Assembly (NCBI RefSeq): GCF_001633105.1
Contig: NZ_LUKZ01000028.1
Location: 1-45,098 of the forward strand
Source of the DNA: Acidovorax sp. GW101-3H11
GTDB taxonomy: Bacteria; Pseudomonadota; Gammaproteobacteria; Burkholderiales; Burkholderiaceae_C
Direction: 5' to 3'
DNA: 45,098 bases
In this document: positions 7,918 to 36,402 of the stretch, in pieces
Numbering within the stretch: position 1 is the stretch's first letter
Layout: every line of letters begins with the position of its first letter
Made by a program: the position numbers and the translations under genes
The notes under the pieces: model-generated
The model's input: the letters and a program-made list of their open reading frames with translations, nothing else
The model's database searches: none
What the model was told of the DNA's origin: nothing

Positions 7918-8012
7918 CAGGGGTCCGTTAAGAGAGTTTACGCATAGGGCCGCAGTGCGGCCCGTGCATTTGAGTTATCCACAGCGCTGCGCGCCACCCA
8001 ACACCGCACGCA

Positions 8013-8136
8013 ACTGGCGCGGCCTAAGCCAGCGCCCCCGTGCAAGGGCCGCCCCGCCGCACGGGGGGCGTCCCCCTCCCGACTCGCGCAGCGAGTTGAG
8101 AGAGGGGGAAGGCGCGAAGCGACTCAGGGGGGTGCT
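8013..8136. repeat. Dispersed intergenic repeat, copy 1
   Basis: The gap between the binding-protein and ATPase genes contains a GC-rich element. Read on the minus strand it has the blocks CCCCCTGAGTCGCTTCG, CGCCTTCCCCCTCTC, GGGGGACGCC and GCGCTGGCTTAGGC in order. The same blocks in the same order recur at 42241-42360 on the plus strand. It is an intergenic repeat of this lineage, not a gene. Confidence 0.75.
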
Positions 8137-9171
8137 TCATTTTTTCGGCAGGATGTTCAGCTCGGCCGTGCTGGGCAGGAAGCTGGGGTTCCACACGTCG
8201 TCGGCGTTCACGCGGGTCTTGGTGTTGAACGCGTCGGACACCTGCGATGCCATCAGCGACAGGCGGCCGGGTACGGCCTTGCCGAAGCCTTCGGCGCGCG
8301 CATCGGGGCTGTTGATCACGGTGTCGATGGCCAGCTGCAGGCGGCGGGTTTCGAGCGGCACGTTCACGATGCCGTCGCGCGCTTTCACATGCTCGATGGC
8401 GGCGGCGGGGTTGGCGATCACTTCCTTGGCGCCCTTGGCAAAGGCCGACAGGAAGGCCTTGATGGCGGCCGGGTTCTCCTTGATGAGCTTGGGGCTGGCG
8501 ATGATCACGTTGCCGTACAGCTTCACGCCAAAGTCGGCGTAGGGCAGCACCACCACGTCGGCGGCCTTGGCACCGCGCGCTTCCAGGTTCAGCAGGCTCG
8601 TGAAGGTGAAGCCGGTGATGGCGTCCACATCACCGCGCACCAGCATGGTTTCGCGCAATGGGGGGTCCATGGCGGTCCAGGTCACGGCGCCAATACCGTT
8701 GGCCTTCTGGAAGATGGGGAACGCGCGGCGGCCTGCGTCGAACACGGGGGCGCCCAGCTTCTTGCCTGCTAGGTCGGCGGGCTTGGTGATGCCGCTCTTC
8801 TTGAGCGCCATGACCGAGGCGGGCGTGTTGTTGTAGACCATCATCACCGCCACGGGCTTGTTCTGCGCGTCGGGGTTGTTGGCGTGGAACTCCATCACGG
8901 CGGCCAGGTCGGCAAAACCCATGTCGTAGGTGCCCGAGGCTACGCGCTGCACCGCACCGCCCGAACCGTTGCCTGCATCCACCGCCACATCCAGGCCCGC
9001 CGCCTTGAAGTAGCCCTTGGCCACAGGCTGCAGGAACAGGGCGGCAGGGCCCTCGAAGCGCCAGTCGAGCTGGAACTTGATGGGCGTGGTGGCCTGGGCC
9101 TGGGCCGTGCTGAAGGTGCTGGCGGTGGCGAGCAGGAGGGCGGCTTGCAGGAGGGTGCGTTTGTTCATCAT
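8137..9171 (-). CDS. ABC transporter substrate-binding protein (NMT1/THI5-like)
   Basis: 344 aa from the first ATG of MMNKRTLL at 9169-9171, with AGGA 8 bp upstream; the second Met is equally possible. A signal peptide ends at about residue 26 (AQAQA). The mature part follows the SsuA/THI5 pattern: FQLDWRFEGPAALFL, a pocket segment GNGSGGAVQRVASGTYDMGFAD, and the dimer of lobes expected of periplasmic binding proteins. Relatives bind sulfonates, taurine, nitrate or formylaminopyrimidine. The operon's deaminase argues for a nitrogen heterocycle here. Confidence 0.9.
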   Translation of the reverse strand: MMNKRTLLQAALLLATASTFSTAQAQATTPIKFQLDWRFEGPAALFLQPVAKGYFKAAGLDVAVDAGNGSGGAVQRVASGTYDMGFADLAAVMEFHANNPDAQNKPVAVMMVYNNTPASVMALKKSGITKPADLAGKKLGAPVFDAGRRAFPIFQKANGIGAVTWTAMDPPLRETMLVRGDVDAITGFTFTSLLNLEARGAKAADVVVLPYADFGVKLYGNVIIASPKLIKENPAAIKAFLSAFAKGAKEVIANPAAAIEHVKARDGIVNVPLETRRLQLAIDTVINSPDARAEGFGKAVPGRLSLMASQVSDAFNTKTRVNADDVWNPSFLPSTAELNILPKK

Positions 9172-16705: not shown

Positions 16706-16863
16706 AACTGTAGACAACTGTTGAAAGCCAGAACATGGGGTTATCCCGCGCTGCGCACCGCTCTGGCGTGTTGCCATCCCCTGCCTGGGTTGAAGTAGTT
16801 TTGACTATGGCGCACTGCTGTGCGGGTGGCCATGGCCCCACAATCGCCCGCGGAGACAACCCC

Positions 16864-18204
16864 ATGAACATCACCGACGCCGTGCCCGACCCCGTTCGCC
16901 AGAGCGGGGATTTCCTCGAATACCTCTACCGCGTGGCCGTGCGCCGCGCGCTACCGCTGCACAACACCGCTGCTTTTCTGCCCGCCCCCCCCAGTCGCGA
17001 GAGCGGCGGCCGCACCCTGGTGCTGGGCGCTGGCAAAGCCGGTGGCGCCATGGCCCAGGCGGTGGAGGCGCTGTGGCCGGCCGATGCGCCGCTGTCGGGC
17101 CTGGTCGTCACGCGCTACCACCACACACCGCCCCGGCCCGACGGGCTGCCCCAGCGGATCGAGGTGGTCGAGGCTGCGCACCCTGTGCCTGATGCGGCGG
17201 GGCTGGCGGCCGCAGAGCGCATCCTGGCGCTCACCGAGGGCCTCACCGAAAACGACCTGGTGCTGTGCCTGATCTCGGGCGGGGGCTCGGCCCTGCTCAC
17301 GCTACCGGCGGATGGGCTCACGCTCGAAGACAAGCAGCGCATCAACAAGGCCTTGCTGGAGAGCGGCGCCGCCATCGACGAGATGAACTGCGTGCGCAAG
17401 CACCTCTCGCGCATCAAGGGCGGGCGACTGGCGGCGGCGTGCGCGCCCGCGCGCGTGGTCACGCTCACCATCAGCGACGTGCCGGGCGACGACCCCTCGG
17501 TGATCGCCAGCGGCCCCACGGTGCCCGATGCGACCACCTGCGCGGACGCGCTGGCCATCCTGGCGCGCTATGGCATCGAGGTGCCCCCCGCAGTGCGCGC
17601 TGCACTGGAAGCAGGCACGCTGGAAACCCCCAAGCCCGGCGACGCGGTGTTTGCGAACCATGTGGTGCACATGACGGCCACGCCCCAGCAGTCGCTGCAG
17701 GCCGCTGCCGAGGCCGCGCGGGCGGCGGATGTGGCTGCGTACATCCTGTCCGACGAGATCGAAGGCGAATCGCGCGAGGTGGGCAAGGTGCACGCTGCGC
17801 TGGCACGCGCCGTGGCGCGGCATGGCCAGCCGTTTGCGCGCCCCTGCGTGATCCTCTCGGGCGGCGAGACCACCGTCACCATCCGCCCGCGCGCACCCGG
17901 CGCCGCCAAGGGCCGGGGCGGCCGGGCGGGCGAGTTCTGCATGGGGCTCGCGCAGGCGCTGCAAGGCCAGGCGGGCGTGTGGGCGCTGGCGGCGGACACC
18001 GACGGCATCGACGGCGTGGAAGACAACGCCGGTGCCCGCGTGGCACCCGACACCCTGGCGCGCGCTGCGGCGCAGGGCCTGTCCATCGCAGACCACCTGG
18101 ACCGCAACGATGCCTATGGCTACTTCGATGCGCTGGGCGACCTGGTCATCACCGGGCCCACGCACACCAACGTCAACGACTTCCGGGCGATCCTGATTTT
18201 GTAG
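16864..18204 (+). CDS. ttuD: Glycerate 2-kinase / TtuD-type protein (MOFRL family)
   Basis: 446 aa from the ATG at 16864 (CGGAGACAACCCC upstream). N-terminal DUF4147 domain: VLGAGKAGGAMAQA, LCLISGGGSALLTLP, HLSRIKGGRLA and TISDVPGDDPSVIASGPT. C-terminal MOFRL domain: TDGIDGVEDNAGA and GPTHTNVNDFRAIL. Family members were first called hydroxypyruvate reductase (TtuD), but characterised ones are glycerate 2-kinases making 2-phosphoglycerate. With Gcl and GlxR nearby, the kinase role completes glyoxylate to 2-phosphoglycerate. It is divergent from dctA. Confidence 0.92.
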   Translation: MNITDAVPDPVRQSGDFLEYLYRVAVRRALPLHNTAAFLPAPPSRESGGRTLVLGAGKAGGAMAQAVEALWPADAPLSGLVVTRYHHTPPRPDGLPQRIEVVEAAHPVPDAAGLAAAERILALTEGLTENDLVLCLISGGGSALLTLPADGLTLEDKQRINKALLESGAAIDEMNCVRKHLSRIKGGRLAAACAPARVVTLTISDVPGDDPSVIASGPTVPDATTCADALAILARYGIEVPPAVRAALEAGTLETPKPGDAVFANHVVHMTATPQQSLQAAAEAARAADVAAYILSDEIEGESREVGKVHAALARAVARHGQPFARPCVILSGGETTVTIRPRAPGAAKGRGGRAGEFCMGLAQALQGQAGVWALAADTDGIDGVEDNAGARVAPDTLARAAAQGLSIADHLDRNDAYGYFDALGDLVITGPTHTNVNDFRAILIL

Positions 18205-19619: not shown

Positions 19620-21410
<1,791 letters not shown>

Positions 21411-21444: not shown

Positions 21445-21560
21445 CCGTTCGGCCTGAGCTTGTCGAAGGCTCGCTCCCGCCGTTCCTATCCCATCCGTTC
21501 AGCTTGAGCCTGTCGAAGGCCTCCCCTGTGCCCTGGCTTCGACAAGCTCAGCCCGAACGG
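21445..21560. repeat. Cluster of three CCGTTCGG...GTCGAAG repeats
   Basis: Copies at 21445-21470 and 21495-21520 on the plus strand and 21536-21560 inverted. Each runs from CCGTTCGG (or TTCAG) through TGAGC to GTCGAAG. The last two can pair into a hairpin with a 15-base loop, in the gcl-hyi gap. The same motif recurs at 44753-44777 and, degraded, at 44796-44820. A common intergenic repeat of beta/gamma-proteobacteria. Confidence 0.85.
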
Positions 21561-21634
21561 TGGATGGGGACGTGGACGGAGGGAGCGGGCCTCCCCTGTC
21601 CCTTGTTTTGATTCCTTGCCACCGGAGACTTTTC

Positions 21635-22414
21635 ATGCCCCGTTTTGCTGCCAACCTCAGCATGCTGTTCACCGAGGTTCCTTTTCTCGACCGCTTTGAG
21701 CGCGCCGCGCGCACCGGCTTTGAGGCCGTGGAGTTCCTTTTCCCTTACGAATTTCCCGCAGAAGAAATCCGCGCGCGCATCGACAAACACCAGTTGCAGA
21801 TCGTGCTGCACAACCTGCCCGCAGGCGACTGGGCCGCTGGCGAGCGCGGCATTGCCTGCGACCCGGCACGCATCGTGGAGTTTCGCGCCGGTGTGGCCCT
21901 GGCCATCACCTACGCCCAGGCACTGGGCGTGCCGCAGCTCAACTGCCTGGCGGGCAAGGCACCGGCAGGGGTGGATGCGGCGGTGCTGCGCCGCACCCTG
22001 GTCGATAACCTGCGCTTCGCGGCCACGGAGTTGAGGGCGGCCGGGCTGCGCCTGCTGATCGAGCCCATCAACCCCTTTGATATCCCGGGCTTCTACCTGA
22101 CTCGCACGGACCAGGCGCTGGACATCCTGGACGAAGTGGATGCCAGCAATGCCTTTGTGCAATACGACATCTACCACGCGCAGCGCACCGAAGGCGAAAT
22201 CGCGGCCACGCTGCAAAAGCACCTGCCACGCATCGGCCACGTGCAGCTGGCCGACAACCCCGGCCGCAACGAACCGGGCACGGGCGAGATCAACTACCGC
22301 TACCTGTTCGCGCACCTGGACCGCATCGGCTACGACGGCTGGGTGGGCTGTGAGTACCGGCCTGCACGCACAACCGAGATCGGCCTGGGGTGGCGCACGG
22401 CGCTGACCGCATGA
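21635..22414 (+). CDS. hyi: Hydroxypyruvate isomerase
   Basis: 259 aa from the ATG at 21635 (CCGGAGACTTTTC upstream); typical Hyi is 258-260 aa. TIM-barrel of the AP-endonuclease-2/xylose-isomerase-like family. Motifs: NLSMLFTEVPFLDRFERAA at the N-terminus, the metal-site Glu in LLIEPINPFDIPGF, QYDIYHAQRTEG, and ADNPGRNEPGTGEINY. It interconverts hydroxypyruvate and tartronate semialdehyde. It follows gcl after a repeat-filled gap and precedes glxR by 50 bp. Confidence 0.95.
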   Translation: MPRFAANLSMLFTEVPFLDRFERAARTGFEAVEFLFPYEFPAEEIRARIDKHQLQIVLHNLPAGDWAAGERGIACDPARIVEFRAGVALAITYAQALGVPQLNCLAGKAPAGVDAAVLRRTLVDNLRFAATELRAAGLRLLIEPINPFDIPGFYLTRTDQALDILDEVDASNAFVQYDIYHAQRTEGEIAATLQKHLPRIGHVQLADNPGRNEPGTGEINYRYLFAHLDRIGYDGWVGCEYRPARTTEIGLGWRTALTA

Positions 22415-22464
22415 GCCAGGACCCACGGATCGACGAATCACCACCACACAAGGAGAACAAGAAC

Positions 22465-23379
22465 ATGACCGACACCCCCCTCAAACTCGGTTTCATCGGC
22501 CTGGGCATCATGGGCGCGCCCATGTGCGGCCACCTCATCGCTGCGGGCCACCAGCTGTACGTGCACACCCGGGGCCGCGTGGCGCCGCAGATTGCACAGA
22601 GCAGCGCCACGCAATGCACCACCGCGCGTGGTGTGGCCGAGCGGGCCGACATCGTTTTTCTGATGCTGCCCGACACGCCCGATGTGGAGAAGGTGCTGTT
22701 CGGCGCCGACGGCGTAGCTCAAGGCTTGAAAGGCAGCGTGGGCAAGGTGGTGGTGGACATGAGTTCCATCTCGCCCGTGGCCACCAAGGACTTCGCGGCA
22801 CGCATCGAGGCTGTGGGCGCGCAGTACCTGGACGCCCCCGTCTCGGGCGGCGAGCTGGGCGCGAAGAACGCCACGCTGTCCATCATGGTCGGTGGCCCCG
22901 AGGCAGTGTTCGAGCGCATCAGGCCCTTGTTCGAGCGCCTGGGCAAGAACATCACCCTGGTGGGTGGCAACGGCGACGGCCAGACCGCCAAGGTGGCCAA
23001 CCAGATCATTGTGGCGCTCAACATCGAGGCCGTGGCCGAGGCGCTGCTGTTTGCCGCCCGCGCGGGCGCCGACCCGGCCCGTGTGCGCCAGGCGCTGCTG
23101 GGCGGTTTCGCTTCGTCCAAGATCCTGGAGGTGCATGCCGAGCGCATGATCAAGCGCACCTTCGACCCGGGCTTTCGCATCGGGCTGCACCAGAAGGACT
23201 TGAACCTCGCGCTGTCGAGTGCGCGGGCGCTGGGCGTGCCGCTGCCCAACACGGCGATGGCGCAGGAATTGTTCAATGCCTGCGTGGCCCATGGCGGGCA
23301 GGGCTGGGACCACTCGGCGATGGTGCGGGCGCTGGAGAAGATGGCGAATTTTGAGATGGGGCAAGCCGCAGCGGCTTGA
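22465..23379 (+). CDS. glxR: 2-hydroxy-3-oxopropionate (tartronate semialdehyde) reductase
   Basis: 304 aa from the ATG at 22465 (AAGGAGAACAAGAAC upstream). Rossmann motif GFIGLGIMG (9-17). Beta-hydroxyacid-dehydrogenase features: substrate loop DAPVSGGELGAKN (from 123) and catalytic Lys176 in GQTAKVANQ. It reduces tartronate semialdehyde to glycerate with NAD(P)H, feeding the kinase at 16864-18204. Final gene of the gcl unit. The relative GarR acts on the same compound in glucarate use; the gcl-hyi neighbourhood favours GlxR. Confidence 0.96.
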   Translation: MTDTPLKLGFIGLGIMGAPMCGHLIAAGHQLYVHTRGRVAPQIAQSSATQCTTARGVAERADIVFLMLPDTPDVEKVLFGADGVAQGLKGSVGKVVVDMSSISPVATKDFAARIEAVGAQYLDAPVSGGELGAKNATLSIMVGGPEAVFERIRPLFERLGKNITLVGGNGDGQTAKVANQIIVALNIEAVAEALLFAARAGADPARVRQALLGGFASSKILEVHAERMIKRTFDPGFRIGLHQKDLNLALSSARALGVPLPNTAMAQELFNACVAHGGQGWDHSAMVRALEKMANFEMGQAAAA

Positions 23380-26729: not shown

Positions 26730-26789
26730 TGGAGCACAATCTGATGGTGCCACTGTGTTTGCCAACCAGTGGCTTTTTACAGGCACCCC

Positions 26790-28286
26790 ATGACCTCACT
26801 TACCCCTGTCACCGACTCCGTCCGCCATGTCCTGCTGGAAGCCCCGCTGGTGCGGGGGCGGCAGGGCGATTCGCTGCAGCGCCAGCTCCTGGGCCGCATC
26901 CGCGACGCCATCCTGGATGGTCGCTTCCCCTCGGGCTGCCGCTTGCCCGGGTCGCGGGACCTGGCGGCGGACCTGGGGGTGTCGCGCAACAGCGTGACGG
27001 CGGTGTACGAGCAGCTGGGGGCTGAGGGCTACATCGAGCTGAACCGCCGGGGCACCAAGGTGGCCGCGCTGGACCGCAGCCGCGCCCGGGGCCGTGCGGA
27101 CGCAGCCCGCGTGGTGCCGCCGCGCCTGTCCGAACGCAGCGCGCAGGTGGTCAGCCGCTTTGCCGATGCGGCCGACACCCTGGCGTTCAAACCCGGTGTG
27201 CCTGCGCTGGCGCGGTTTCCGGTGAGTGCATGGAAGAGCTGTTTTGACCGCGCGTTCAAGACGGCGGGCGTGGCGGCCCTGGGCTATGGCCACCCCGCAG
27301 GCGAGGCAGCCTTGCGCAGCGCCATCCTGCGGCACTTGGCGGTGGCGCGGGGCGTGCGCTGCGACATCGGTCAAGTGGTCATTACCGAAGGCGCGCAGGA
27401 GGCCCTGAACCTGTGCGTGCGGCTGGCAACCAACCCGGGCGACACCGCCTGGCTGGAAGACCCGGGCTACCGGGGCGCACACACGGCGTTCCGGTGTGGG
27501 GACCTGCGGGTGGAGCCCGTGCGGGTCGATGATGCAGGCTTGCTGGTGCCCGCCCAGGCCTGGGCGGCAATGCCACCCCGGCTCATCTACACCACGCCGT
27601 CCCACCAGTACCCCACGGGCGCCGTGCTGCCGGTGGCGCGCAGGCTGGCGCTGATCCGCCAGGCCCAGGCCTGCGGCGCCTGGATTATTGAGGACGACTA
27701 CGACAGCGAATTCCGCCACGCGGGCGAGCTGATCGGCGCCATGCAGGGCCTGGTGCCTGAAGCGCCGGTGATGTACGTGGGCACGTTCAGCAAGACGCTG
27801 TTCCCGTCGTTGCGGCTCGGCTTTGTGGTGCTGCCGCAGGCGCTGGTGGCCGTGGCCGCGCCCCTGCTCAAGGAGTCGCTGCGCGGCGGGCACCGCCACG
27901 AGCAGCTGGCGCTGGCAGAGTTCATCGAGAGCGGGCAGTTCAGCCGGCACCTGGGGCGCATGCGGCGCCTGTACCGCAGCCGACAGGCGCTGCTGCGCGA
28001 TGCATTGGCGCAGCACCTGGCCGTGCCCCACACGGTGCTGGGGGGCGACAGCGGCATGCACCTCACGGTGCGCCTGCCGCCCGCATACCCCGACCAGGCC
28101 ATTGCCGAGGCGGCCCGCGCCTACGACATGGCGCCCGCGCCGCTGTCACGCTTTGCCCTGCGCGCACAGCCCGAAGACAACGGCCTGGTGCTGGGCTACG
28201 GCAACACGTCAGAGTCGCAGTACCCGGCCCTGGTGCAGCGGCTTGCGCGGCTGGCGAAGGCGCAGCGGGCACACCGCAGCGCCTGA
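26790..28286 (+). CDS. MocR/GabR-family PLP-dependent transcriptional regulator
   Basis: 498 aa from the ATG at 26790 (MTSLTPVTDS). N-terminal GntR-like winged helix at about 28-95 (GDSLQRQLLGRIRDAILDGR, LPGSRDLAADLGVSRNSVT). A linker leads to an aminotransferase fold I domain at about 130-490, with EDDYDSEFR (301-309) and the PLP lysine Lys335 in GTFSKTLFPSLRLGF. MocR proteins sense a PLP-reactive amine and regulate a divergent gene, here the GNAT acetyltransferase. The PLP-binding residues seen are intact. Confidence 0.94.
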   Translation: MTSLTPVTDSVRHVLLEAPLVRGRQGDSLQRQLLGRIRDAILDGRFPSGCRLPGSRDLAADLGVSRNSVTAVYEQLGAEGYIELNRRGTKVAALDRSRARGRADAARVVPPRLSERSAQVVSRFADAADTLAFKPGVPALARFPVSAWKSCFDRAFKTAGVAALGYGHPAGEAALRSAILRHLAVARGVRCDIGQVVITEGAQEALNLCVRLATNPGDTAWLEDPGYRGAHTAFRCGDLRVEPVRVDDAGLLVPAQAWAAMPPRLIYTTPSHQYPTGAVLPVARRLALIRQAQACGAWIIEDDYDSEFRHAGELIGAMQGLVPEAPVMYVGTFSKTLFPSLRLGFVVLPQALVAVAAPLLKESLRGGHRHEQLALAEFIESGQFSRHLGRMRRLYRSRQALLRDALAQHLAVPHTVLGGDSGMHLTVRLPPAYPDQAIAEAARAYDMAPAPLSRFALRAQPEDNGLVLGYGNTSESQYPALVQRLARLAKAQRAHRSA

Positions 28287-28299
28287 GCACGAAACCGCG

Positions 28300-29535
28300 T
28301 CAGGCGAGCAGGTCGCTGAGCGAGCGCGCAATCACCTTGGTGGCGCGGCGCAGGTCTTCCAGCTGCAGGCGCTCGTCGGCACGTTTGGCGTGCGACTCAA
28401 GCACGGTGCGCGGGCCCGCGCCGTAGATCACGCCGGGAATACCGCGCTCCACATACAGGCGCACGTCGGTGTACAGCGGCGTGCCCACGGCGGGCACGGG
28501 CTCACCGATCACGGCCTGCGCGTGTGTCTGGATGGCATCGACCAGGGGCTGGTTGCCCGCCAGCGGCGTCATTGCGTTGGCCAGCAGCAGGCGCTTGATC
28601 TCCACGCGAATACCGTCGCGCTCGCCCGCTGCCTGCTCAATGATGCGGCGGATGGCGGCTTCGACCTCCACCGGGTTCTCTTCGGGGATCATGCGGCGGT
28701 CGAGCTTGAACATCACCTTGCCCGGCACAACGTTGGTGTTGGTGCCGCCTTCGATGCGGCCGACGTTCAGGTACGGGTGCTTGATGCCCGCCACGTTGGA
28801 CGTGACCTTCTTGTACTCATCGTTCTGCGCATACAGCGCGTTCAGGATGTGCACCGCGCCCTGCAGCGCGTCCACGCCCGTGTGGGGCACGGCGGCGTGG
28901 GCCATCTTGCCGTGCACAGTCACTTCCATCTGCAGGCAGCCGTTGTGGGCGGTGACCACTTCGTAGCTGAAGCCGGCGGCGATCATCAGGTCGGGTTGGG
29001 TCAGCCCCTTTTGCAGCAGCCAGCCGGGGCCGAGTTCGCCGCCGAATTCCTCGTCGTAGGTGAAGTGCAGCTCCACCGCGCCCCGGGCGGGCTTGGCGAC
29101 GGCTTCCAGCGCGCGCACGGCGAAGGTGAAGCTCGCAAAGTCGCTTTTGCTCACGGCAGTGGCGCGGCCATACATGGCGCCACCCTCAATCTCGGCGCCG
29201 TAGGGGTCGTGTGTCCAGCCTTCGCCGGGCGGCACCACATCACCGTGGGCGTTCAGGGCAATGGTCTTGCCGCCGTTGCCGTAGGGTCTGCGCACGATGA
29301 GGTTGGTGATGGATTCCATGCCGTAGGCCAACACGTCGGCGGCGGGCACGGCATGTTTCTCGGCCTCGTAGCCAAATTCCTTCAGCAGCTCGGCCGTGCG
29401 TTCGGCGTGGGGGGCGTTGTTGCCGGGTGGCGTGTCGGTGGGCACGCGCACCAGGGCCTGCAAAAAGCGCACTTCCTCGTCAAAGTGCTGGTCGATCCAG
29501 GCGTCCAGCGCGGCGTAGTGGTTAGGGGTGGTCAT
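28300..29535 (-). CDS. M20-family metallohydrolase (ArgE/DapE-like), substrate unknown
   Basis: 411 aa from the ATG at 29533-29535, overlapping the upstream fusion gene by 4 bp (ATGA), so the two are translationally coupled. Metal site: His98/Asp100 in NAHGDVVPPGEGW, Asp132 in SKSDFASF (the usual DMKG is altered), Asp161-Glu162-Glu163 in YDEEFGGELG, plus the dimer motif GGTNTNVVPG. It is therefore a di-zinc amidohydrolase, probably active. Most M20 relatives deacylate amino acids. Its place after allantoate amidohydrolase in a cluster without ureidoglycolate lyase makes a ureido substrate possible, but that is inference only. Confidence 0.9.
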   Translation of the reverse strand: MTTPNHYAALDAWIDQHFDEEVRFLQALVRVPTDTPPGNNAPHAERTAELLKEFGYEAEKHAVPAADVLAYGMESITNLIVRRPYGNGGKTIALNAHGDVVPPGEGWTHDPYGAEIEGGAMYGRATAVSKSDFASFTFAVRALEAVAKPARGAVELHFTYDEEFGGELGPGWLLQKGLTQPDLMIAAGFSYEVVTAHNGCLQMEVTVHGKMAHAAVPHTGVDALQGAVHILNALYAQNDEYKKVTSNVAGIKHPYLNVGRIEGGTNTNVVPGKVMFKLDRRMIPEENPVEVEAAIRRIIEQAAGERDGIRVEIKRLLLANAMTPLAGNQPLVDAIQTHAQAVIGEPVPAVGTPLYTDVRLYVERGIPGVIYGAGPRTVLESHAKRADERLQLEDLRRATKVIARSLSDLLA

Positions 29536-31310
29536 GGTTGTTGTTCCTCTGCAAGTTGGCGCAGCACCTGGGTGAAGGCGTCCACGGCCAGCTGCATGTC
29601 GTTGTTGGTGGTGGATTCGAGCGGGTTGTGGCTGATGCCCGAGTTCAGCCCGCGCACAAAGAGCATGGCCTGGGGCATGATTTCGTGGAGCTTCATCGCG
29701 TCGTGTCCCGCGCCGCTGGGCATGCGGAACACGGGCACACCCAGGGCGTCCACGGCGCGCTCCCAGTGGTGCTGCCAGGCGGGCGCGCTGGGCGCAGCCG
29801 CGGCGCGCATGGATTCCTCCAGCGTGTAGCGCAGGCCGCGCCGGGCGGCAATTTTTGCAAGCTGCTCCTTCACGTCGCTCACCAATGCATTGCGCTGCGC
29901 ATCGGTGGGCGCGCGCAGGTCCAGGCTGAATTGGCAGCGGCCGGGTACCACGTTGATGGAGCCTGCAGGCACCTGCAGCTGGCCGATGGTGCCGACCGAG
30001 TCGCCGTCCTGCGCGGCACGCTGCTCCACATACAGCGCCAGCTCTGCCACGGCCACGGCTGCGTCGCGGCGGCGGTCCATGGGGGTGGTGCCCGCGTGGC
30101 TGGCGGTGCCGATCATCTCGCACAGAAACCGCACGCTGCCGTTGATGGAGGTGACCACGCCCAGGGGCAGGTCCAGCTCGTTGAGCACGGGGCCCTGCTC
30201 GATGTGCACCTCGATGAAGCCCAGGTACTGCGCCGGGTCGCGCTGCAGCTTCGGGATGTCATCGATGCACAGGCCCGCATGCTGCATGGCCGCGCGCATG
30301 GTCACTCCGTCCACGTCCTTCTGGTCAAGCCAAGCGGGGTTGAAATCGCCAATGAGCGCGCCCGAGCCGAGGAAGGTGGCCTTGTAGCGCTGGCCTTCTT
30401 CTTCGGCAAAGCCCACCACCTCGATGCCGAAGGGCAGGCGCCTGCCAGCGCGGTGCAGCTCGCGCACACAGGCCATGGGCACAAAAATGCCCAAGCGGCC
30501 GTCGTACTTGCCGCCGTTGCGCACAGTGTCGTAGTGGCTGCCGGTCATGAGGTAACGCGCGCCTTCCGTGGCGGGGTGGTAGCGCCCCACCACGTTGCCC
30601 ACGGCGTCGATCTCCACCTCGTCAAAGCCGCAGTCGCGCATCCAGTGGCTGATGCGCTGGGCGCAGGCGCGGTGCGCGTCGGTCAGATACGTGACGGTGA
30701 GCTGGCCTTTTTCGGCGAAACCGGGGTCGGAGTGTTCGGCGAGCTTTTCCTGCCAGTCCCACACGTCGTTGCCCAGCACGGGCTCGGTGGCGAACTTGTC
30801 GTTCAGGCGGATCTCGGCGATGCGGTAGATGTTGCGCAATGCCTCGGCCAGCTCGAACTCGGGGTGGTTGTCCAGGCGCCGGGCAAAGGTGTCGATGATC
30901 GCCTGCTTGGGCAGGCCCGTGCCGCGCGGCCCGCGCACCGCCAGGATGAACGGGAAGCCGAAGCGTTCGTTGTAGGCCGCGTTGAGCTGCTGGATGCGCT
31001 CGAACTCCTCGGGCGTGCACTGCGTGAGGCCCGCTTTGCTCTGCTCGTTGGTGGACTCGGCCGTGAGATTCTTGGCCACCATGGCCTTGCCCGCCAGTTC
31101 GGGGTGGGCGCGGATCAGCGCGAGCTGCGCGTCCTGCCCCGCCGTGCGCACGACCTGGGCCAGTGCGTGCTGCAGGTGGGCCTGCGAGCGGAAGGGGCGC
31201 TGCGCCAGCGCGCGCTCTGCAATCCAGGGCGAGTGTTCGTACAGGCCGTCCAGCAGCTGCAGGGCCTCGGCGGGGCTGGCGGCGTTGAGTTGTTCCAGGG
31301 TCAGGGCCAT
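29532..31310 (-). CDS. OHCU decarboxylase-allantoate amidohydrolase fusion
   Basis: 592 aa with two catalytic domains. Residues 1-172 are 2-oxo-4-hydroxy-4-carboxy-5-ureidoimidazoline decarboxylase (UraD): catalytic His69 in RAHPELAGK, SKAGL, then NERFGFPFILAVRG. Residues about 190-592 are an M20 amidase/carbamoylase domain like allantoate amidohydrolase: His259 in GSHYDTV, Asp270 in YDGRLG, EEEGQR (303-308), FIEVHIEQGPVL and a C-terminal His in SGISHNP. Together they take OHCU to S-allantoin and allantoate to ureidoglycine plus CO2 and ammonia. PuuE, the enzyme between these steps, is encoded 3 bp upstream. Confidence 0.95.
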   Translation of the reverse strand: MALTLEQLNAASPAEALQLLDGLYEHSPWIAERALAQRPFRSQAHLQHALAQVVRTAGQDAQLALIRAHPELAGKAMVAKNLTAESTNEQSKAGLTQCTPEEFERIQQLNAAYNERFGFPFILAVRGPRGTGLPKQAIIDTFARRLDNHPEFELAEALRNIYRIAEIRLNDKFATEPVLGNDVWDWQEKLAEHSDPGFAEKGQLTVTYLTDAHRACAQRISHWMRDCGFDEVEIDAVGNVVGRYHPATEGARYLMTGSHYDTVRNGGKYDGRLGIFVPMACVRELHRAGRRLPFGIEVVGFAEEEGQRYKATFLGSGALIGDFNPAWLDQKDVDGVTMRAAMQHAGLCIDDIPKLQRDPAQYLGFIEVHIEQGPVLNELDLPLGVVTSINGSVRFLCEMIGTASHAGTTPMDRRRDAAVAVAELALYVEQRAAQDGDSVGTIGQLQVPAGSINVVPGRCQFSLDLRAPTDAQRNALVSDVKEQLAKIAARRGLRYTLEESMRAAAAPSAPAWQHHWERAVDALGVPVFRMPSGAGHDAMKLHEIMPQAMLFVRGLNSGISHNPLESTTNNDMQLAVDAFTQVLRQLAEEQQP

Positions 31311-31313
31311 GGG

Positions 31314-32273
31314 TCAGCCTGCTTTCTGTGAAGGGTAGGGGTGCGCCTGTTTCCAGTGGCGCGCGATGTCGATGCGGCGGCACACCCACACGTCGCTGTG
31401 CTGCTGGATGTGGTCCAGAAAACGCTGCAGCGCCGTGATGCGGCCAGGGCGGCCCAGCAGGCGGCAGTGCATGCCGATGCTCATCATCTTGGGCGCGTTG
31501 TCGCCTGCCGGGTCGCCTTCGGCATAGAGTGCGTCGAAGGTGTCCTTCATGTACTGGAAGAACGGGTCGGCGTGCGAGTAGCCCTGGGGCAGCGCAAAGC
31601 GCATGTCGTTGCAGTCGAGTGTGTAGGGCACGATGAGCTGGGGCACGGTGGCTCCATTGCTTTTTTTCACGTCCATCCAGAACGGAAGGTCGTCGCCGTA
31701 GTAGTCGCTGTCGTACTCAAAGCCGCCGAAGTCGGCCACCAGTCGGTGGGTGTTGGGGCTGTCGCGGCCGGTGTACCAGCCCAAGGCTCTTTCTCCGGTC
31801 ATGCGCTCGATGATGGCCATGGCCTCGGCCATGTGCGCGCCCTCGACGTCTTCGGGGATATGTTGGTAGTGAATCCACTTGAGGCCATGGCAGGCGATCT
31901 CGTGGCCCAGTTCCACAAAAGCCTGGGTCAGGTCAGGGTGGCGTTGCAGCGCGCTCGACACGCCGAACACCGTGAGCGGCAGCTGGCGCTTTTCAAACTC
32001 GCGCAGGATGCGCCAGACGCCAGCCCGCGAGCCGTATTCGTAGATACCCTCCATGCTCATGTGCCGCTCTGGGTAGCTGGCGGGGTTGAACATTTCCGAC
32101 AGGAACTGTTCGCTGCCCGCATCGCCGTGCAGCACGGCGTTCTCGCCGCCTTCTTCGTAATTCAGCACAAACTGCACGGCAATGCGCGCACCCCCCGGCC
32201 ACTGCGCGTGGGGCGGGGTCTTGCCGTAGCCGATGAGGTCGCGGGGGTAATGCTGGGTGGAGTCGTAGATCAT
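31314..32273 (-). CDS. puuE: Allantoinase PuuE (polysaccharide-deacetylase fold, cofactor-independent)
   Basis: 319 aa; PuuE proteins are about 305-320 aa. Motifs: IAVQFVLNYEEGGENAVLHG, MEGIYEYGSRAGVWR, GHEIACHGLKWIHYQHI and GWYTGRDSPNTHRLV. It is unrelated to the metal-dependent AllB allantoinase. It opens the allantoin ring to give allantoate. It follows gntR by 21 bp and precedes the fusion gene by 3 bp, within the operon gntR-puuE-fusion-M20. Confidence 0.96.
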   Translation of the reverse strand: MIYDSTQHYPRDLIGYGKTPPHAQWPGGARIAVQFVLNYEEGGENAVLHGDAGSEQFLSEMFNPASYPERHMSMEGIYEYGSRAGVWRILREFEKRQLPLTVFGVSSALQRHPDLTQAFVELGHEIACHGLKWIHYQHIPEDVEGAHMAEAMAIIERMTGERALGWYTGRDSPNTHRLVADFGGFEYDSDYYGDDLPFWMDVKKSNGATVPQLIVPYTLDCNDMRFALPQGYSHADPFFQYMKDTFDALYAEGDPAGDNAPKMMSIGMHCRLLGRPGRITALQRFLDHIQQHSDVWVCRRIDIARHWKQAHPYPSQKAG

Positions 32274-32294: not shown

Positions 32295-32963
32295 TCACGG
32301 CATCAGCGCGGCGGCCAGGTCGCTGGCCGGGCGTTTGCGGTCAAACGTCAGGCTGGCTTCCACATGTTCGAGGTGCGACTGCATGAGGGAGACGGCCAGC
32401 GCCTCGTCGCGTGCGGCCAGGGCGGCCACGATGTCGCCATGCTCCTCGTGGGAGTGTTCGGCGGCGCTGGCCGACTGGTACATCAACGTGATCAGCGCGC
32501 AGCGCGAGATCAGGTCGCCCAGCATTTGTGCCAGCACCTCGTTGCCCATGAGTTCGGCCATGCGCACATGGAAGTCGCCCAGCAACTCGGTGCGGCTGCT
32601 CGCGTCGGCCGTGCCCATGGCGGCCTTCTCGCTGGCCACATGGGCGCGCAGGGCCTTGATCTTGGCGGGGGTCACCGTTTGCACAAAGGCGCGCGTCATC
32701 TCGGTTTCGAGCATGCGGCGCACCGCAAATACTTGCCGGGCCTCTTCGACGGAAGGCGTGGAGACAAAAGCGCCACGCGCGGGCTCCAGCGTGACGAGGC
32801 GGTTTTGCGCGAGCTGGAACAGCGCCTGGCGCACCAGCGTGCGCGACACGCCGAAGTGGTCGGCCAGTTTCTGCTCGGCCAATTTGGTGCCTGGCTGCAG
32901 GCGGTGCTCCACGATGGCGCGGGTCAGCGCCTCGACAATCGCACTGGTGGATGAAGATTCCAT
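32295..32963 (-). CDS. GntR-family FCD regulator of the allantoin operon
   Basis: 222 aa. Winged helix at about 8-70: LQPGTKLAEQKLADHFGVSR, then TLVRQALFQLAQNRLVTLEP and RGAFVSTPS. The FCD effector domain follows (VEEARQVFAVRRMLETEM, TELLGDFHVRMAELMGNEVL, SHEEHGDIVAALAARDE). First gene of the minus-strand operon with puuE. A perfect 18-bp palindrome lies 25 bp upstream of its start and close to the divergent hiuH. It is probably autoregulatory and responds to a purine-ring product. Confidence 0.94.
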   Translation of the reverse strand: MESSSTSAIVEALTRAIVEHRLQPGTKLAEQKLADHFGVSRTLVRQALFQLAQNRLVTLEPARGAFVSTPSVEEARQVFAVRRMLETEMTRAFVQTVTPAKIKALRAHVASEKAAMGTADASSRTELLGDFHVRMAELMGNEVLAQMLGDLISRCALITLMYQSASAAEHSHEEHGDIVAALAARDEALAVSLMQSHLEHVEASLTFDRKRPASDLAAALMP

Positions 32964-33005: not shown

Positions 33006-33071
33006 GGTCTACACGCTGCGATCTGGCAATCCTCGCCGATCGGCCGTGGTCCCCACTTCAGGAGATTCCCT

Positions 33072-33422
33072 ATGGGATTGAGCACCCACGTTCTCGACAC
33101 CATGAACGGCTGCCCCGCCGCCGGCATGGAGGTCGCCCTGTATGCCACCGACGGCGACAACGCCACCCTCATCAAACGTCTGGTGCTAAACCACGACGGC
33201 CGCACCGATGCACCGCTGTTTGACAACACCAGCCTGCGCACCGGCACCTACCGGCTGCGTTTTGATGTGGCGGGCTACTTCAAGGCCCGGGGCGTGCAGT
33301 TGCCCGAACCCAACTTTTTGAACCAGGTGAGCCTGGATTTCGGCATTGCGCATGCCGACCAGCACTACCACGTGCCCCTGCTGGTGAGCCCGTGGAGCTA
33401 TTCGACCTACCGAGGTTCGTAG
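33072..33422 (+). CDS. hiuH: 5-hydroxyisourate hydrolase (transthyretin-like)
   Basis: 116 aa from the ATG at 33072 with AGGAGATTCCCT before it. All marks of the family: STHVLDTMNGCPA at the N-terminus, the catalytic Arg in HDGRTDAPL, HYHVPLLVSPWSYSTYRGS with the diagnostic C-terminal YRGS. It hydrolyses 5-hydroxyisourate, the PuuD product, to OHCU for the decarboxylase domain encoded divergently. Tetrameric cytosolic enzyme. It shares the perfect palindrome at 32988-33005 with the opposite operon. Confidence 0.97.
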   Translation: MGLSTHVLDTMNGCPAAGMEVALYATDGDNATLIKRLVLNHDGRTDAPLFDNTSLRTGTYRLRFDVAGYFKARGVQLPEPNFLNQVSLDFGIAHADQHYHVPLLVSPWSYSTYRGS

Positions 33423-33448: not shown

Positions 33449-33994
33449 CTAAAGCTGGCCTTCCGTGAGGGTATCCAGCTGAAAGTGCCCGCCCTTGTCC
33501 CACAGCCAGGTGTCGGTGTAGGTGACCTTGCCCATGCGCGTGGGCGCAGGGAAGGGCGCCGCAGCGCGCACGGTGCGCTCGATTTCGGCCACCACCTCGG
33601 GCGCGTGGCGCGGGGCGCGCATCCAGTGCAGGCGGGTGACCTTGCCGCTGCGGTCAATGTCCACCTGCAGCACGCCAATGGCGTACAACTGGGCGGGCAG
33701 CTTGCCTTTGAAGATGCGTTCGCGGTTCAGCCCATAAAGGTGCGTGGCCGCATCCTGCCGGTAGGCTTGGGGCGTGGCGGCGGCCGAGGGGCGTGCCGAC
33801 CCGGCGGCAGCGGGCACCGGGCCCTTCACGCCACCGGGCTCTGCGCTGGTGGACGGCACGCTGTCAGGAGGCGCCGGGGCGGGTTCTGGCGGCGATTTGC
33901 AGGCCGATACCAGGGCGGCACCAAGGGCCATGATGCCTGCCAGCAGCCAGTGGCTGCGCGGGCCGGGGGAGCGGTGGGGGGGCGTGTCGGGCAT
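33449..33994 (-). CDS. Putative lipoprotein with TonB-C-like domain
   Basis: 181 aa from the ATG at 33992-33994. Signal helix WLLAGIMALGAALVSAC with lipidation Cys32, then a Pro/Ala/Ser linker. The C-terminal region of about 90 residues (IGVLQVDIDRSGKVTRLHWM ... EVVAEIERTVRAAAPFPAPT) resembles the beta-alpha-beta TonB C-terminal/TolA-like domain, though the protein has no TonB proline spacer or inner-membrane anchor. Role unknown. It is convergent with hiuH and divergent from xdhC. Confidence 0.75.
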   Translation of the reverse strand: MPDTPPHRSPGPRSHWLLAGIMALGAALVSACKSPPEPAPAPPDSVPSTSAEPGGVKGPVPAAAGSARPSAAATPQAYRQDAATHLYGLNRERIFKGKLPAQLYAIGVLQVDIDRSGKVTRLHWMRAPRHAPEVVAEIERTVRAAAPFPAPTRMGKVTYTDTWLWDKGGHFQLDTLTEGQL

Positions 33995-34061
33995 GGTGTG
34001 GGTGTGGCAGGGGCCACCAGCGGTGCCAGTGGCCAGGGGCGTTAACGACAAAGGAATGGCG

Positions 34062-34874
34062 GTGACAAATTTGCGTTTGCTGTTGGACGGTTTGACCGCC
34101 GGGCCAGCATGCCTGGTAACCGTAGAGTCTACCCAAGGGTCGGTGCCCCGCGAGGCCGGGGCCTGGATGGCCGTGTTTGCCGACCGCCTGGTGGGCACCA
34201 TCGGCGGGGGGCACCTGGAGCTGCAGGCCATTGCAGAAGCGCGCCTGCGGCTGGCAGGCACGGCGGCCAGCAACCCAGCGCCCGTGCGGTACGCGCTGGG
34301 CCCTGCGCTCGGCCAATGCTGTGGCGGCGTGGTGCACCTGGGCTTTGTGCTGCTCACGGCGGCCGATGCCCCGGGCCTGGGCGCTCGCCTGGTGCCCCGC
34401 CACCACCCCGTGGCGCTGTTTGGCGGCGGCCATGTGGGCCACGCGCTGGCCCGTGTGCTGGCGCCGCTGCCGTTTGCGCTGACGTGGATCGACAGCCGCG
34501 ACGGCATCTTCCCCGAGCCGCCGCCCGACGGCGCAGTCTGCGAGCATTCCGACCCGGTGCAGGGGGCCGTGCCGGGCCTGGCGCCGGGCAGCCGCGTGCT
34601 GATCATGAGCTTCAGCCATGCCGAGGACCTGGATGTGGTGGCCGCCTGCCTGCAGCGCCAGCGGCAGCATCGGGACCTGCCCTTCATCGGGCTGATCGGC
34701 AGCCAGACCAAATGGGCCACCTTTGGCAGCCGCCTGCGCAGCCGGGGGTTCAGCCAGGACGAGCTGACCCAGGTGACCTGCCCCATCGGCATCCCCGGCA
34801 TCGGGGGCAAGGAGCCCGAGGTGATCGCCGTGGCTGTGGCGGCGCAGCTGCTGCTCAGCCTGAAGTCAGCCTGA
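34062..34874 (+). CDS. xdhC: Xanthine dehydrogenase accessory protein XdhC
   Basis: 270 aa from a GTG at 34062 with AAGGA six bases upstream; an ATG two codons earlier (34056) overlaps that ribosome site. The XdhC/CoxI N-terminal domain has ESTQGSVPREAGAWMAV, GTIGGGHLELQA and ALGPALGQCCGG. The C-terminal Rossmann domain has VALFGGGHVGHALARVL, then LIGSQTKWATFGSRL and PIGIPGIGGKEPEVIAVAVA. XdhC binds and sulfurates the molybdenum cofactor and delivers it to xanthine dehydrogenase. XdhA and XdhB are not in the window. Confidence 0.95.
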   Translation: MTNLRLLLDGLTAGPACLVTVESTQGSVPREAGAWMAVFADRLVGTIGGGHLELQAIAEARLRLAGTAASNPAPVRYALGPALGQCCGGVVHLGFVLLTAADAPGLGARLVPRHHPVALFGGGHVGHALARVLAPLPFALTWIDSRDGIFPEPPPDGAVCEHSDPVQGAVPGLAPGSRVLIMSFSHAEDLDVVAACLQRQRQHRDLPFIGLIGSQTKWATFGSRLRSRGFSQDELTQVTCPIGIPGIGGKEPEVIAVAVAAQLLLSLKSA

Positions 34875-34993: not shown

Positions 34994-35139
34994 ATTCACC
35001 GGTCGCAGCGGTGCCCAGCAGATTCTCTCTGCCCAGGTGCGCGACCCCCTTCTTCTGCTCAGAGCGCCCGCAGTGGTGAGCAGGTTGTACAAGCGGCATG
35101 CGCGGCACATTCGCCCGCACGCCGCCAAGGTTGAGAACT

Positions 35140-36402
35140 ATGGAAAGCTACCTTCTCGACTGGGCCAACCTGCTCTTGCGCTGGGTCCACGTCATCACCG
35201 CCATCGCCTGGATTGGCTCGTCGTTCTACTTCGTCTTCCTCGACAGCAGCCTCACGCCGCCCGAGGACGACGACCTCAAGAAGCAGGGTGTGAGTGGCGA
35301 ACTCTGGGCCGTGCACGGCGGCGGCTTCTACCACCCCGTCAAGTTCGCTGTATCGCCGCCCAAGCTGCCCGGGCACCTGCACTGGTTCTTCTGGGAGAGC
35401 TACAGCACCTGGATCAGCGGGTTTGCGCTGTTCACGGTGTCCTACCTGTTTAGCGCCAGCACCTACCTCATCGACAAGTCGCGCATGGACTGGGCGCCTG
35501 CCACAGCCATCGTCGTGGCGCTGGCGTTCTTCGTCGTGTTCTGGCTGCTGTACGACGCGATCTGCCGCATCTTTGGCCAGAGGAAAAACGGCGACGCCAT
35601 TGTGGGCGCGCTGGTGCTGGTGCTGGTGTGCATTGCCTCGTGGCTGGCCTGCCACTGGTTTGCGGGCCGCGCGGCCTTCTTGCTGGTGGGCGCGATGATT
35701 GCCACGGCCATGAGCGCCAACGTGTTCTTCTGGATCATCCCCGGCCAGCGCACCGTCATCGCCCAGATCAAGGCGGGCGAGCCGGTGGACCCGATCCACG
35801 GCAAACGTGGCAAGCAGCGCAGCGTGCACAACACCTACTTCACGCTGCCCGTGCTGTTTGCCATGCTCAGCAACCACTACAGCTTTACCTGGAGCCACCC
35901 GCAGAACTGGCTGGTGCTGATCCTGATGATGTTCGCGGGCGCGGCCATCCGCCAGTTCTTTGTGATGCGCCACGGCTACAAGCTGGGCCGCAACGGCAAC
36001 CCGCTGCCCTATGCGCTGGTGGGCGTGGTGGTGATTGTGGGCGCCATCGCCTGGATGCGCCCGGCACCCGTCGCGGCCGTGGCCACACCCATGCCTGCAC
36101 CTGGTGTTGCTCCTGTTTCAGGAGCTGCTGGGGCAAGCGCAGCGGGCGCAGGCAGCCAAATTGACTTCAAATCGGTGCAGGCCGTGCTGGCGCAGCGCTG
36201 CTATATGTGCCACGGCGAGCAGGTGCAGATGAAAAACATGCGGCTCGATTCCCCCGCGCTGGTCCAGCAACATGCCCAGGCCGTCTACCAGCAGGTGGTG
36301 GTGCAAAAGCTCATGCCCATGAACAACGCCACGGGCATGACGGATGCGGAGCGCGCGCTGGTCAAGCGCTGGTTCGAGGCAGGGGCGCCTACGGGGCCTT
36401 GA
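35140..36402 (+). CDS. puuD: Membrane-bound urate hydroxylase with C-terminal cytochrome c
   Basis: 420 aa from the ATG at 35140 (MESYLLDWANLLLRW). The N-terminal urate-oxidase domain (about 1-315) has some eight membrane helices and conserved His/Trp patches (LRWVHVITAIAWIGSSFYFV, LHWFFWESYSTW, SVHNTYFTLPVLFAMLSNHY). The C-terminal domain (from about 340) is a class I cytochrome c with CYMCH at 354-358. The protein oxidises urate to 5-hydroxyisourate and passes electrons to the respiratory chain. The Ala/Gly/Pro linker at about 315-342 is encoded by DNA resembling an intergenic repeat. Downstream is the low-GC patch. Confidence 0.96.
   Translation: MESYLLDWANLLLRWVHVITAIAWIGSSFYFVFLDSSLTPPEDDDLKKQGVSGELWAVHGGGFYHPVKFAVSPPKLPGHLHWFFWESYSTWISGFALFTVSYLFSASTYLIDKSRMDWAPATAIVVALAFFVVFWLLYDAICRIFGQRKNGDAIVGALVLVLVCIASWLACHWFAGRAAFLLVGAMIATAMSANVFFWIIPGQRTVIAQIKAGEPVDPIHGKRGKQRSVHNTYFTLPVLFAMLSNHYSFTWSHPQNWLVLILMMFAGAAIRQFFVMRHGYKLGRNGNPLPYALVGVVVIVGAIAWMRPAPVAAVATPMPAPGVAPVSGAAGASAAGAGSQIDFKSVQAVLAQRCYMCHGEQVQMKNMRLDSPALVQQHAQAVYQQVVVQKLMPMNNATGMTDAERALVKRWFEAGAPTGP
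36107..36164 (+). repeat. AGCTnCT-type repeat relative inside puuD
   Basis: Ungapped alignment with the intergenic copy at 23897-23954 (minus strand) gives 32 of 58 identities, with blocks TTGCT, AGCT-CT, G-GC, CG-GCG, GC-GCCAA and TTGA at the same spacing. It encodes residues about 323-342, the linker before the cytochrome domain. Confidence 0.5.

Follow-up and report, generated by a model that had tools for sequence, protein, structure and literature searches.

We analysed a 45,098-nucleotide stretch of DNA from Acidovorax sp. GW101-3H11 (contig NZ_LUKZ01000028.1, positions 1 to 45,098; hereafter the window), which carries a cluster of purine-degradation genes, and asked what role is played in it by a gene on the reverse strand encoding an M20-fold protein of 411 residues (Table 1). 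We propose that this protein stands in for the enzyme AllA and splits ureidoglycolate to give glyoxylate, probably as a metal-free, urea-releasing lyase, a reading that in our estimate could fall either way and leans slightly towards not holding. Its parts differ in strength: the placement of the gene in the pathway is reasonably supported and ureidoglycolate as its substrate moderately so; that the protein is an enzyme, and that its chemistry is that of a metal-free lyase, is what we infer. The wider proposition, that a large proteobacterial M20 subfamily gave up its metal centre and became a metal-free ureidoglycolate lyase, is possible but rather more doubtful.

A candidate gene at the gap in allantoin breakdown

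Family profiles predict that the cluster in the window spans the steps from urate to ureidoglycine and then those from glyoxylate onward, in agreement with an initial annotation of the same DNA. That annotation had also found the cluster to be without AllA, ureidoglycine aminohydrolase (UGHY) and allantoicase, and had suggested looking for allA elsewhere; the absence extends to the complete genome of the organism (G000 among the surveyed genomes, which are numbered G, as their loci are numbered L; 38 contigs, 100% complete). A profile search of the whole genome found no AllA (E. coli control positive), no UGHY match at E ≤ 0.001 (E. coli control above cut-off) and no allantoicase, for which 0 of 14 controls were positive, yet 23 of 250 searched genomes were. 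The genome holds one extra hydantoinase/carbamoylase-family protein apart from allantoate amidohydrolase (AAH). As initially annotated, the M20 gene overlaps the gene for a UraD–AAH fusion by four bases; the genes for the allantoinase PuuE and a GntR-family regulator lie upstream in the same direction, and those for 5-hydroxyisourate hydrolase, XdhC and urate oxidase are divergent.

Linkage to allantoate-consuming enzymes

Members of the M20 subfamily (E ≤ 1e-100) occur in 38 of 250 Burkholderiales genomes, each at least 95% complete and G000 among them. A member is also found in 19 of 299 Pseudomonadota, where all matches at E ≤ 1e-40 are below 1e-135; as nothing falls between these values, the subfamily stands apart. 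A protein search with at least 8,000 candidates yielded at least 120 relatives among the matches listed, a lower bound on abundance. The best 80 of at least 581 relatives (the close loci) all have the UraD–AAH fusion directly upstream of the M20 gene and in the same orientation (80 of 80), and a start codon is available at the four-base-overlap position in 51 of the 80 (one locus unmeasured). Across the Burkholderiales survey, AAH adjoins M20 (<400 bp, same strand) in 30 of the 38 genomes, upstream in 29 and downstream in 1, and lies about 2.4–2.6 kb away on the opposite strand in 4 more; PuuE scores above its cut-off in 36.

A second line of evidence comes from genomes that carry allantoicase. 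In 22 of these 23 genomes AllA comes after allantoicase, on the same strand and within 100 bp of it; the exception is G223, in which M20 directly follows allantoicase. Its genus mate G523 has the order GntR–PuuE–allantoicase–M20, with no AllA in the 19.9 kb examined (two AllA references, E ≤ 1e-10). M20 is present in 2 of the 5 genomes of this genus. The evidence from this slot comes from two genomes of one genus. M20 thus occupies the genetic position of the ureidoglycolate-cleaving class, beside an allantoate-consuming enzyme and in the AllA slot, with the gene away from AAH in 4 of the 38 genomes. Because M20 pairs both with AAH, whose product is ureidoglycine, and with allantoicase, whose product is ureidoglycolate, the downstream compound common to both arrangements is ureidoglycolate.

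Co-occurrence with other purine enzymes

Statements on AllA and UGHY come from profile searches (from the two references in the case of G523); of the five script-picked references, two (ALLA3 and UGHY2) resemble wrong-frame reads. We counted as full AllA a match of at least 100 bits, leaving out matches below 100 bits (6 of the 38 genomes), UGHY matches under the curated cut-off (46 of 49 genomes) and 3 of 74 PuuE genomes under the cut-off. Among the 71 PuuE genomes, M20 and allantoicase tend not to occur together (both in 2, M20 only in 34, allantoicase only in 20, neither in 15; P = 1.9e-6). The same is true of M20 and full AllA (9, 27, 21 and 14, respectively; P = 0.004), and this second result stands when all matches to PF04115, the AllA domain, are counted (11, 25, 23 and 12; P = 0.004). 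Allantoicase occurs in 2 of the 38 M20 genomes (G108 and G223), a PF04115 match is absent from 25, and UGHY scores above cut-off in 3 of 250 genomes and in 0 of the 38. A lone hydantoinase/carbamoylase-family protein at E ≤ 1e-60 is found in 12 M20 genomes. Nine of the 12 (G016, G037, G054, G085, G117, G141, G198, G221 and G239), in which that protein is AAH, are also without AllA, UGHY above cut-off and allantoicase; in those nine, AAH and M20 are the sole recognised candidates from allantoate to glyoxylate. Of the 38 M20 genomes, 35 encode urease or urea carboxylase, compared with 23 of the 35 other PuuE genomes (P = 0.008). We rejected urease as proof of a urea product, which is weak evidence because both of these enzymes are missing as well from 4 of the 20 genomes that have allantoicase and no M20.

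These counts bear on the possibility that M20 replaces UGHY, removing ammonia from the AAH product ureidoglycine and leaving ureidoglycolate to decay or to be cleaved by another protein. We consider this unlikely: in G223 and G523 M20 follows allantoicase, the product of which is ureidoglycolate and not ureidoglycine, and 29 of the 38 M20 genomes would still be without a full AllA. G058 has a class-V aminotransferase between AAH and PuuE, the position that M20 holds in others, and a similar aminotransferase coexists with M20 in G055, again arguing against UGHY replacement, and with the incomplete M20 of G204.

An altered metal site conserved across the subfamily

Residues were counted in 121 distinct subfamily members, window included (53–100% identity), taken from 160 matches that gave 127 rows after identical proteins were merged; the register was set by alignment to PDB chains 7uoi, 3pfo and 5vo3 and to paralogues in G000. 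Against what we take to be the canonical ArgE/DapE ligand positions (His, bridging Asp, Glu, Glu/Asp, His), the alignment indicates that three of five are altered and that only His97 and Glu163 remain, so that the initial view of a retained metal site does not stand. Its observation of an SKSD in place of DMKG was right as to the altered motif and off in register, since VSKS aligns with DMKG, D132 comes after it and the bridging Asp corresponds to Val128. V128, S129, K130 and D132 are each found in 121 of 121 members, and S131 in 107. The third ligand falls at position 187 (Ala in 118, Pro in 3) or 188 (Gly in 116, Ser in 4, Ala in 1), and 0 of 121 members have Asp or Glu anywhere at 185–190. 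Position 384 is Lys in 107 and His in 14, the latter in members of 53–59% identity; His382 was considered as the last metal His and ruled out, as alignment with the outgroup and the PDB chains leads to position 384.

His97, Asp99 and His213 are, like Glu162 and Glu163, present in all 121 members, and Arg281, Asn268 and His213 are invariant in 44 sequences. In all loci read (79 or 80 of the 80 at each position), the neighbouring AAH retains its His, Asp, Glu and Glu ligands and the two later His residues; with AAH ligands intact in the same operons and the loss uniform over M20 members, the loss of ligands from M20 is a conserved property. The ratio of non-synonymous to synonymous substitution rates (dN/dS) is about 0.06–0.29 in nine pairs, indicating purifying selection on the M20 gene, and a pseudogene is rejected on this ratio and on residue invariance.

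To eliminate urea, a carbinolamide requires the action of a base and an acid and no activation of water. A fold that has kept its general base Glu162 and its carboxylate-side residues while shedding the metals would therefore fit a lyase more readily than an amidohydrolase. In the mechanism we propose, Glu162 would deprotonate the carbinol hydroxyl of ureidoglycolate in a general acid/base elimination while Arg281, His213 and Asn268, whose roles on the carboxylate side we assume from DapE, would hold the carboxylate. The urea nitrogen would be protonated on leaving and urea released, and the resulting glyoxylate would pass to the carboligase, isomerase, reductase and kinase encoded in the same window. 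The available part of PMC3527362 describes the loss of urea from ureidoglycolate as either enzyme-dependent or spontaneous, and that of PMC5270733 describes the intermediates of this pathway segment as unstable.

A metal-dependent ureidoglycolate amidohydrolase that releases ammonia through a rearranged site (for example His97, Glu163 and Asp132) is distinctly unlikely in our view. It would account for the invariance of His97, Asp99, Asp132, Glu162 and Glu163 in 121 of 121 members and for the three M20 genomes with neither urease nor urea carboxylase, where ammonia release would pay better; against it, three of five ligand positions have altered, including the one that is Lys in 107 of 121 members, and the plant enzyme that performs this reaction belongs to the AAH branch. 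The initial proposal of a ureidoglycolate step is therefore sustained in its placement, through linkage to AAH, the missing AllA, UGHY and allantoicase, and the AllA slot in G223 and G523, and is revised in its chemistry, a plant-like amidohydrolase being less likely than a different reaction.

Loss of the metal ligands and tight operon coupling could also reflect a pseudoenzyme with no catalytic role that binds AAH or allantoicase and regulates or stabilises its partner, and M20 proteins dimerise through their lid domain, which would fit such a role. We hold this to be very unlikely: M20 pairs with two unrelated enzymes and is unlinked in some genomes, Glu162, His213 and the substrate-side residues are invariant, and the nine genomes listed above would be left with a glyoxylate-forming step that has no recognised gene.

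Relation to known M20 proteins and ureidoglycolate enzymes

The protein matches the M20 catalytic and dimerisation domains (PF01546, 85.8 bits; PF07687, 78.3 bits; both above cut-off), its sole Pfam matches at E ≤ 1e-3, and exceeds the cut-off of the ArgE/DapE profile TIGR01910 (228.5 against 217.6 bits), with 2 of 5 relatives scanned (L217 and L139) just under it. It thus resembles the ArgE/DapE branch (E. faecium DapE 7uoi, R. palustris 3pfo and DapE 5vo3) in profile but appears, from aligned residues, to fall outside its deacylases at the metal site: the five-ligand dinuclear centre is not found, the bridging Asp, third-ligand Glu and last His being replaced; VSK[SGC]D is specific to the subfamily, and the gene lies in the purine operon. 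An ordinary N-acyl amino acid deacylase that sits in the operon by chance, which the initial annotation had offered as its alternative, is hardly credible: it agrees with the TIGR01910 score and with subfamily copies that are not in purine clusters, such as those next to alanine racemase in G006 and near D-glutamate cyclase in G501, but gene context gives it little support, with the fusion coupled in 80 of 80 close loci, and the dinuclear site used by deacylases of this branch is missing.

The precedent first invoked for M20, plant ureidoglycolate amidohydrolase (UAH; 4pxb and 4pxe), belongs to its neighbour. In the fusion, it is the AAH domain that matches UAH (4pxe, 7e-48; UAH and AAH PDB sequences together, 7e-48 to 1.5e-43), and neither UAH nor AAH is among the 31 PDB sequences that match the M20 protein at E ≤ 1e-3; TIGR01879 is not among the 25 of its 57 family matches that were shown. 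We therefore rejected UAH as a close homologue, as it falls in the AAH (hydantoinase/carbamoylase) branch. AllA and DAL3 (PF04115) share with M20 the proposed reaction and, in G223 and G523, the slot after allantoicase, but their fold family is unrelated and the PF04115 domain is not found in the M20 protein. According to the available part of PMC3793230, AllA is a nickel-dependent lyase of the cupin fold that releases urea, and UAH is a plant enzyme that releases ammonia. 5-Nitroanthranilate aminohydrolase (5k8m–5k8p), compared by sequence identity only, is about 20–23% identical and serves another pathway. The YgeY-type M20 proteins also lie within purine clusters, anaerobic ones, as the available part of PMC4016543 describes; the present protein scores 68 bits against TIGR03526 (cut-off 321.5) and the gene set differs. 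Databases name subfamily members 'ArgE/DapE family deacylase' or 'succinyl-diaminopimelate desuccinylase'. No earlier mention of the present gene in a ureidoglycolate role was found among the results listed by searches of the open-access literature, most subscription papers being outside that scope, and in the available part of a review of inactive metallopeptidases (PMC11266112) 'M20' occurs solely within the reference list.

Evidence weighing against the assignment

Several observations weigh against ureidoglycolate cleavage by M20 as proposed here. Full AllA is present in 9 of the 38 M20 genomes, two of which (G108 and G223) also have allantoicase; in G223 it belongs to the same cluster, at a distance of 9.7 kb. 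The avoidance of allA by M20 orthologues, which the initial annotation had proposed to check, is significant across PuuE genomes and broken by these nine. Weaker PF04115 matches of 31–54 bits, above the Pfam cut-off, occur in G021, G121, G200 and G210, and the association tests ignore shared ancestry. In the other seven AllA genomes, those without allantoicase, the 10–14 kb around AllA hold no purine genes of the window's set bar two: G147 has an AAH-family protein (35% identity) and G002 a carboligase-type thiamine pyrophosphate enzyme (27%). No ureide-pathway family was found in ten AllA neighbours scanned in six of the seven. At the G147 locus (L226, 6854–8577), which is away from the PuuE cluster, about 45 bases separate AllA from a second gene of the hydantoinase/carbamoylase family, and the pair may belong to another ureide route.

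Linkage also has its exceptions. No AAH lies near M20 in G006, G108, G151 and G223 (4 of 38), although in G223 M20 adjoins allantoicase; the G108 copy is near MsrA and kynurenine-pathway genes, and the G501 copy and a second copy in G338, both outside Burkholderiales, have no purine neighbour among those tested. In the tree, unlinked copies are scattered among AAH-linked ones, and a single clade of off-purine copies is rejected (4 tree changes, 3 of them forced by starred branches, on a tree with very long outgroup branches and an unsure root).

Fifteen PuuE genomes have neither M20 nor allantoicase, and we examined the loci of 14 (all but G093). For 5 of the 15 a reason was found: the contig ends within the fusion in G129, M20 is incomplete in G204, G176 has AllA and UGHY, an aminotransferase fills the slot in G058, and a similar one stands beside PuuE at a contig end in G180. 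In the other 10, too, no recognised enzyme covers the step, which means that the gap alone does not point to M20. Three loci of PuuE and AAH without M20, AllA or UGHY above cut-off (L230, L231 and L234, in G011, G056 and G154) contain a second PuuE-like gene. The M20 gene of G204, between PuuE and AAH (L235, ~7947–8700), is without the stretch matching residues 225–362, perhaps through decay or an assembly fault.

On the chemical side, neither urease nor urea carboxylase is found in G085 (a single contig), G141 and G247, so urea would be waste there; M20 may bind metal through a rearranged site; and the conversion of ureidoglycine to ureidoglycolate would still require an enzyme or spontaneous decay.

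The surrounding locus

Features are collected in Table 1. The fusion scores 1084 bits against NF010373, slightly below the cut-off of 1087. We take the urate oxidase to be PuuD-like and the DUF4147/MOFRL protein presumably to function as a glycerate 2-kinase. A MocR-type regulator with GntR and aminotransferase domains (26769–28286, forward strand) faces the M20 gene tail to tail, with 13 bases between it and the M20 stop, and is present in 3 of 80 related loci (L008, L010 and L011). The same island encodes a xanthine/uracil permease family protein (PF00860; 12945–14507, reverse strand), a likely purine importer, and close to the purine genes lies a gamma-glutamyltranspeptidase gene (PF01019; 23955–25871, reverse strand) shared by a minority of the 80 related loci.

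Table 1. Genes and M20 sequence features in the window, with strand and basis
Feature	Position	Strand	Basis or remark
M20-fold protein (subject)	28300..29535	-	411-residue open reading frame
K384, at last metal-ligand His of ArgE/DapE	28384..28386	-	register from three PDB chains
A187-G188, at ligand Glu of ArgE/DapE GEPT	28972..28977	-	register shifts one residue between aligners
Conserved E162 and E163, at the catalytic general-base and ligand positions, respectively	29047..29052	-	121/121 each
VSKSD codons V128-S129-K130-S131-D132, at ArgE/DapE DMK(G/S)G	29140..29154	-	Val128 at bridging Asp
ATGA overlap, UraD-AAH fusion stop / M20 start	29532..29535	-	read from sequence
UraD (OHCU decarboxylase)-AAH fusion	29532..31310	-	TIGR03164, TIGR01879 above cut-off
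Allantoinase PuuE	31314..32273	-	TIGR03212 502 bits, cut-off 424.6
GntR-family regulator	32295..32963	-	no family above cut-off
5-Hydroxyisourate hydrolase	33069..33422	+	TIGR02962
Xanthine dehydrogenase accessory protein XdhC	33924..34874	+	TIGR02964
Membrane-type urate oxidase (PuuD-like)	35098..36402	+	PF06181 424 bits; no NCBIfam match
Glycerate 2-kinase-like DUF4147/MOFRL protein	16735..18204	+	PF13660, PF05161
Glyoxylate carboligase	19620..21410	+	TIGR01504
Hydroxypyruvate isomerase	21632..22414	+	TIGR03234, scanned as 21560-22414
Tartronate semialdehyde reductase	22462..23379	+	NF011633, TIGR01505, scanned as 22390-23379

Implications

Many Comamonadaceae and their relatives have an allantoin pathway without a recognised enzyme from ureidoglycine to glyoxylate, and the M20 gene is the best candidate for that gap. 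If the assignment is true, the deacylase and desuccinylase names that databases now give the subfamily would be wrong, and a systematic annotation error in the nitrogen recycling of soil and water bacteria would be fixed. The protein would then represent a third independent way of completing purine breakdown, alongside the nickel enzyme AllA and plant UAH, which is hydrolytic. It would also be an example of a lyase derived from a hydrolase fold, in which a two-metal hydrolase site would have been remade for metal-free C–N elimination.
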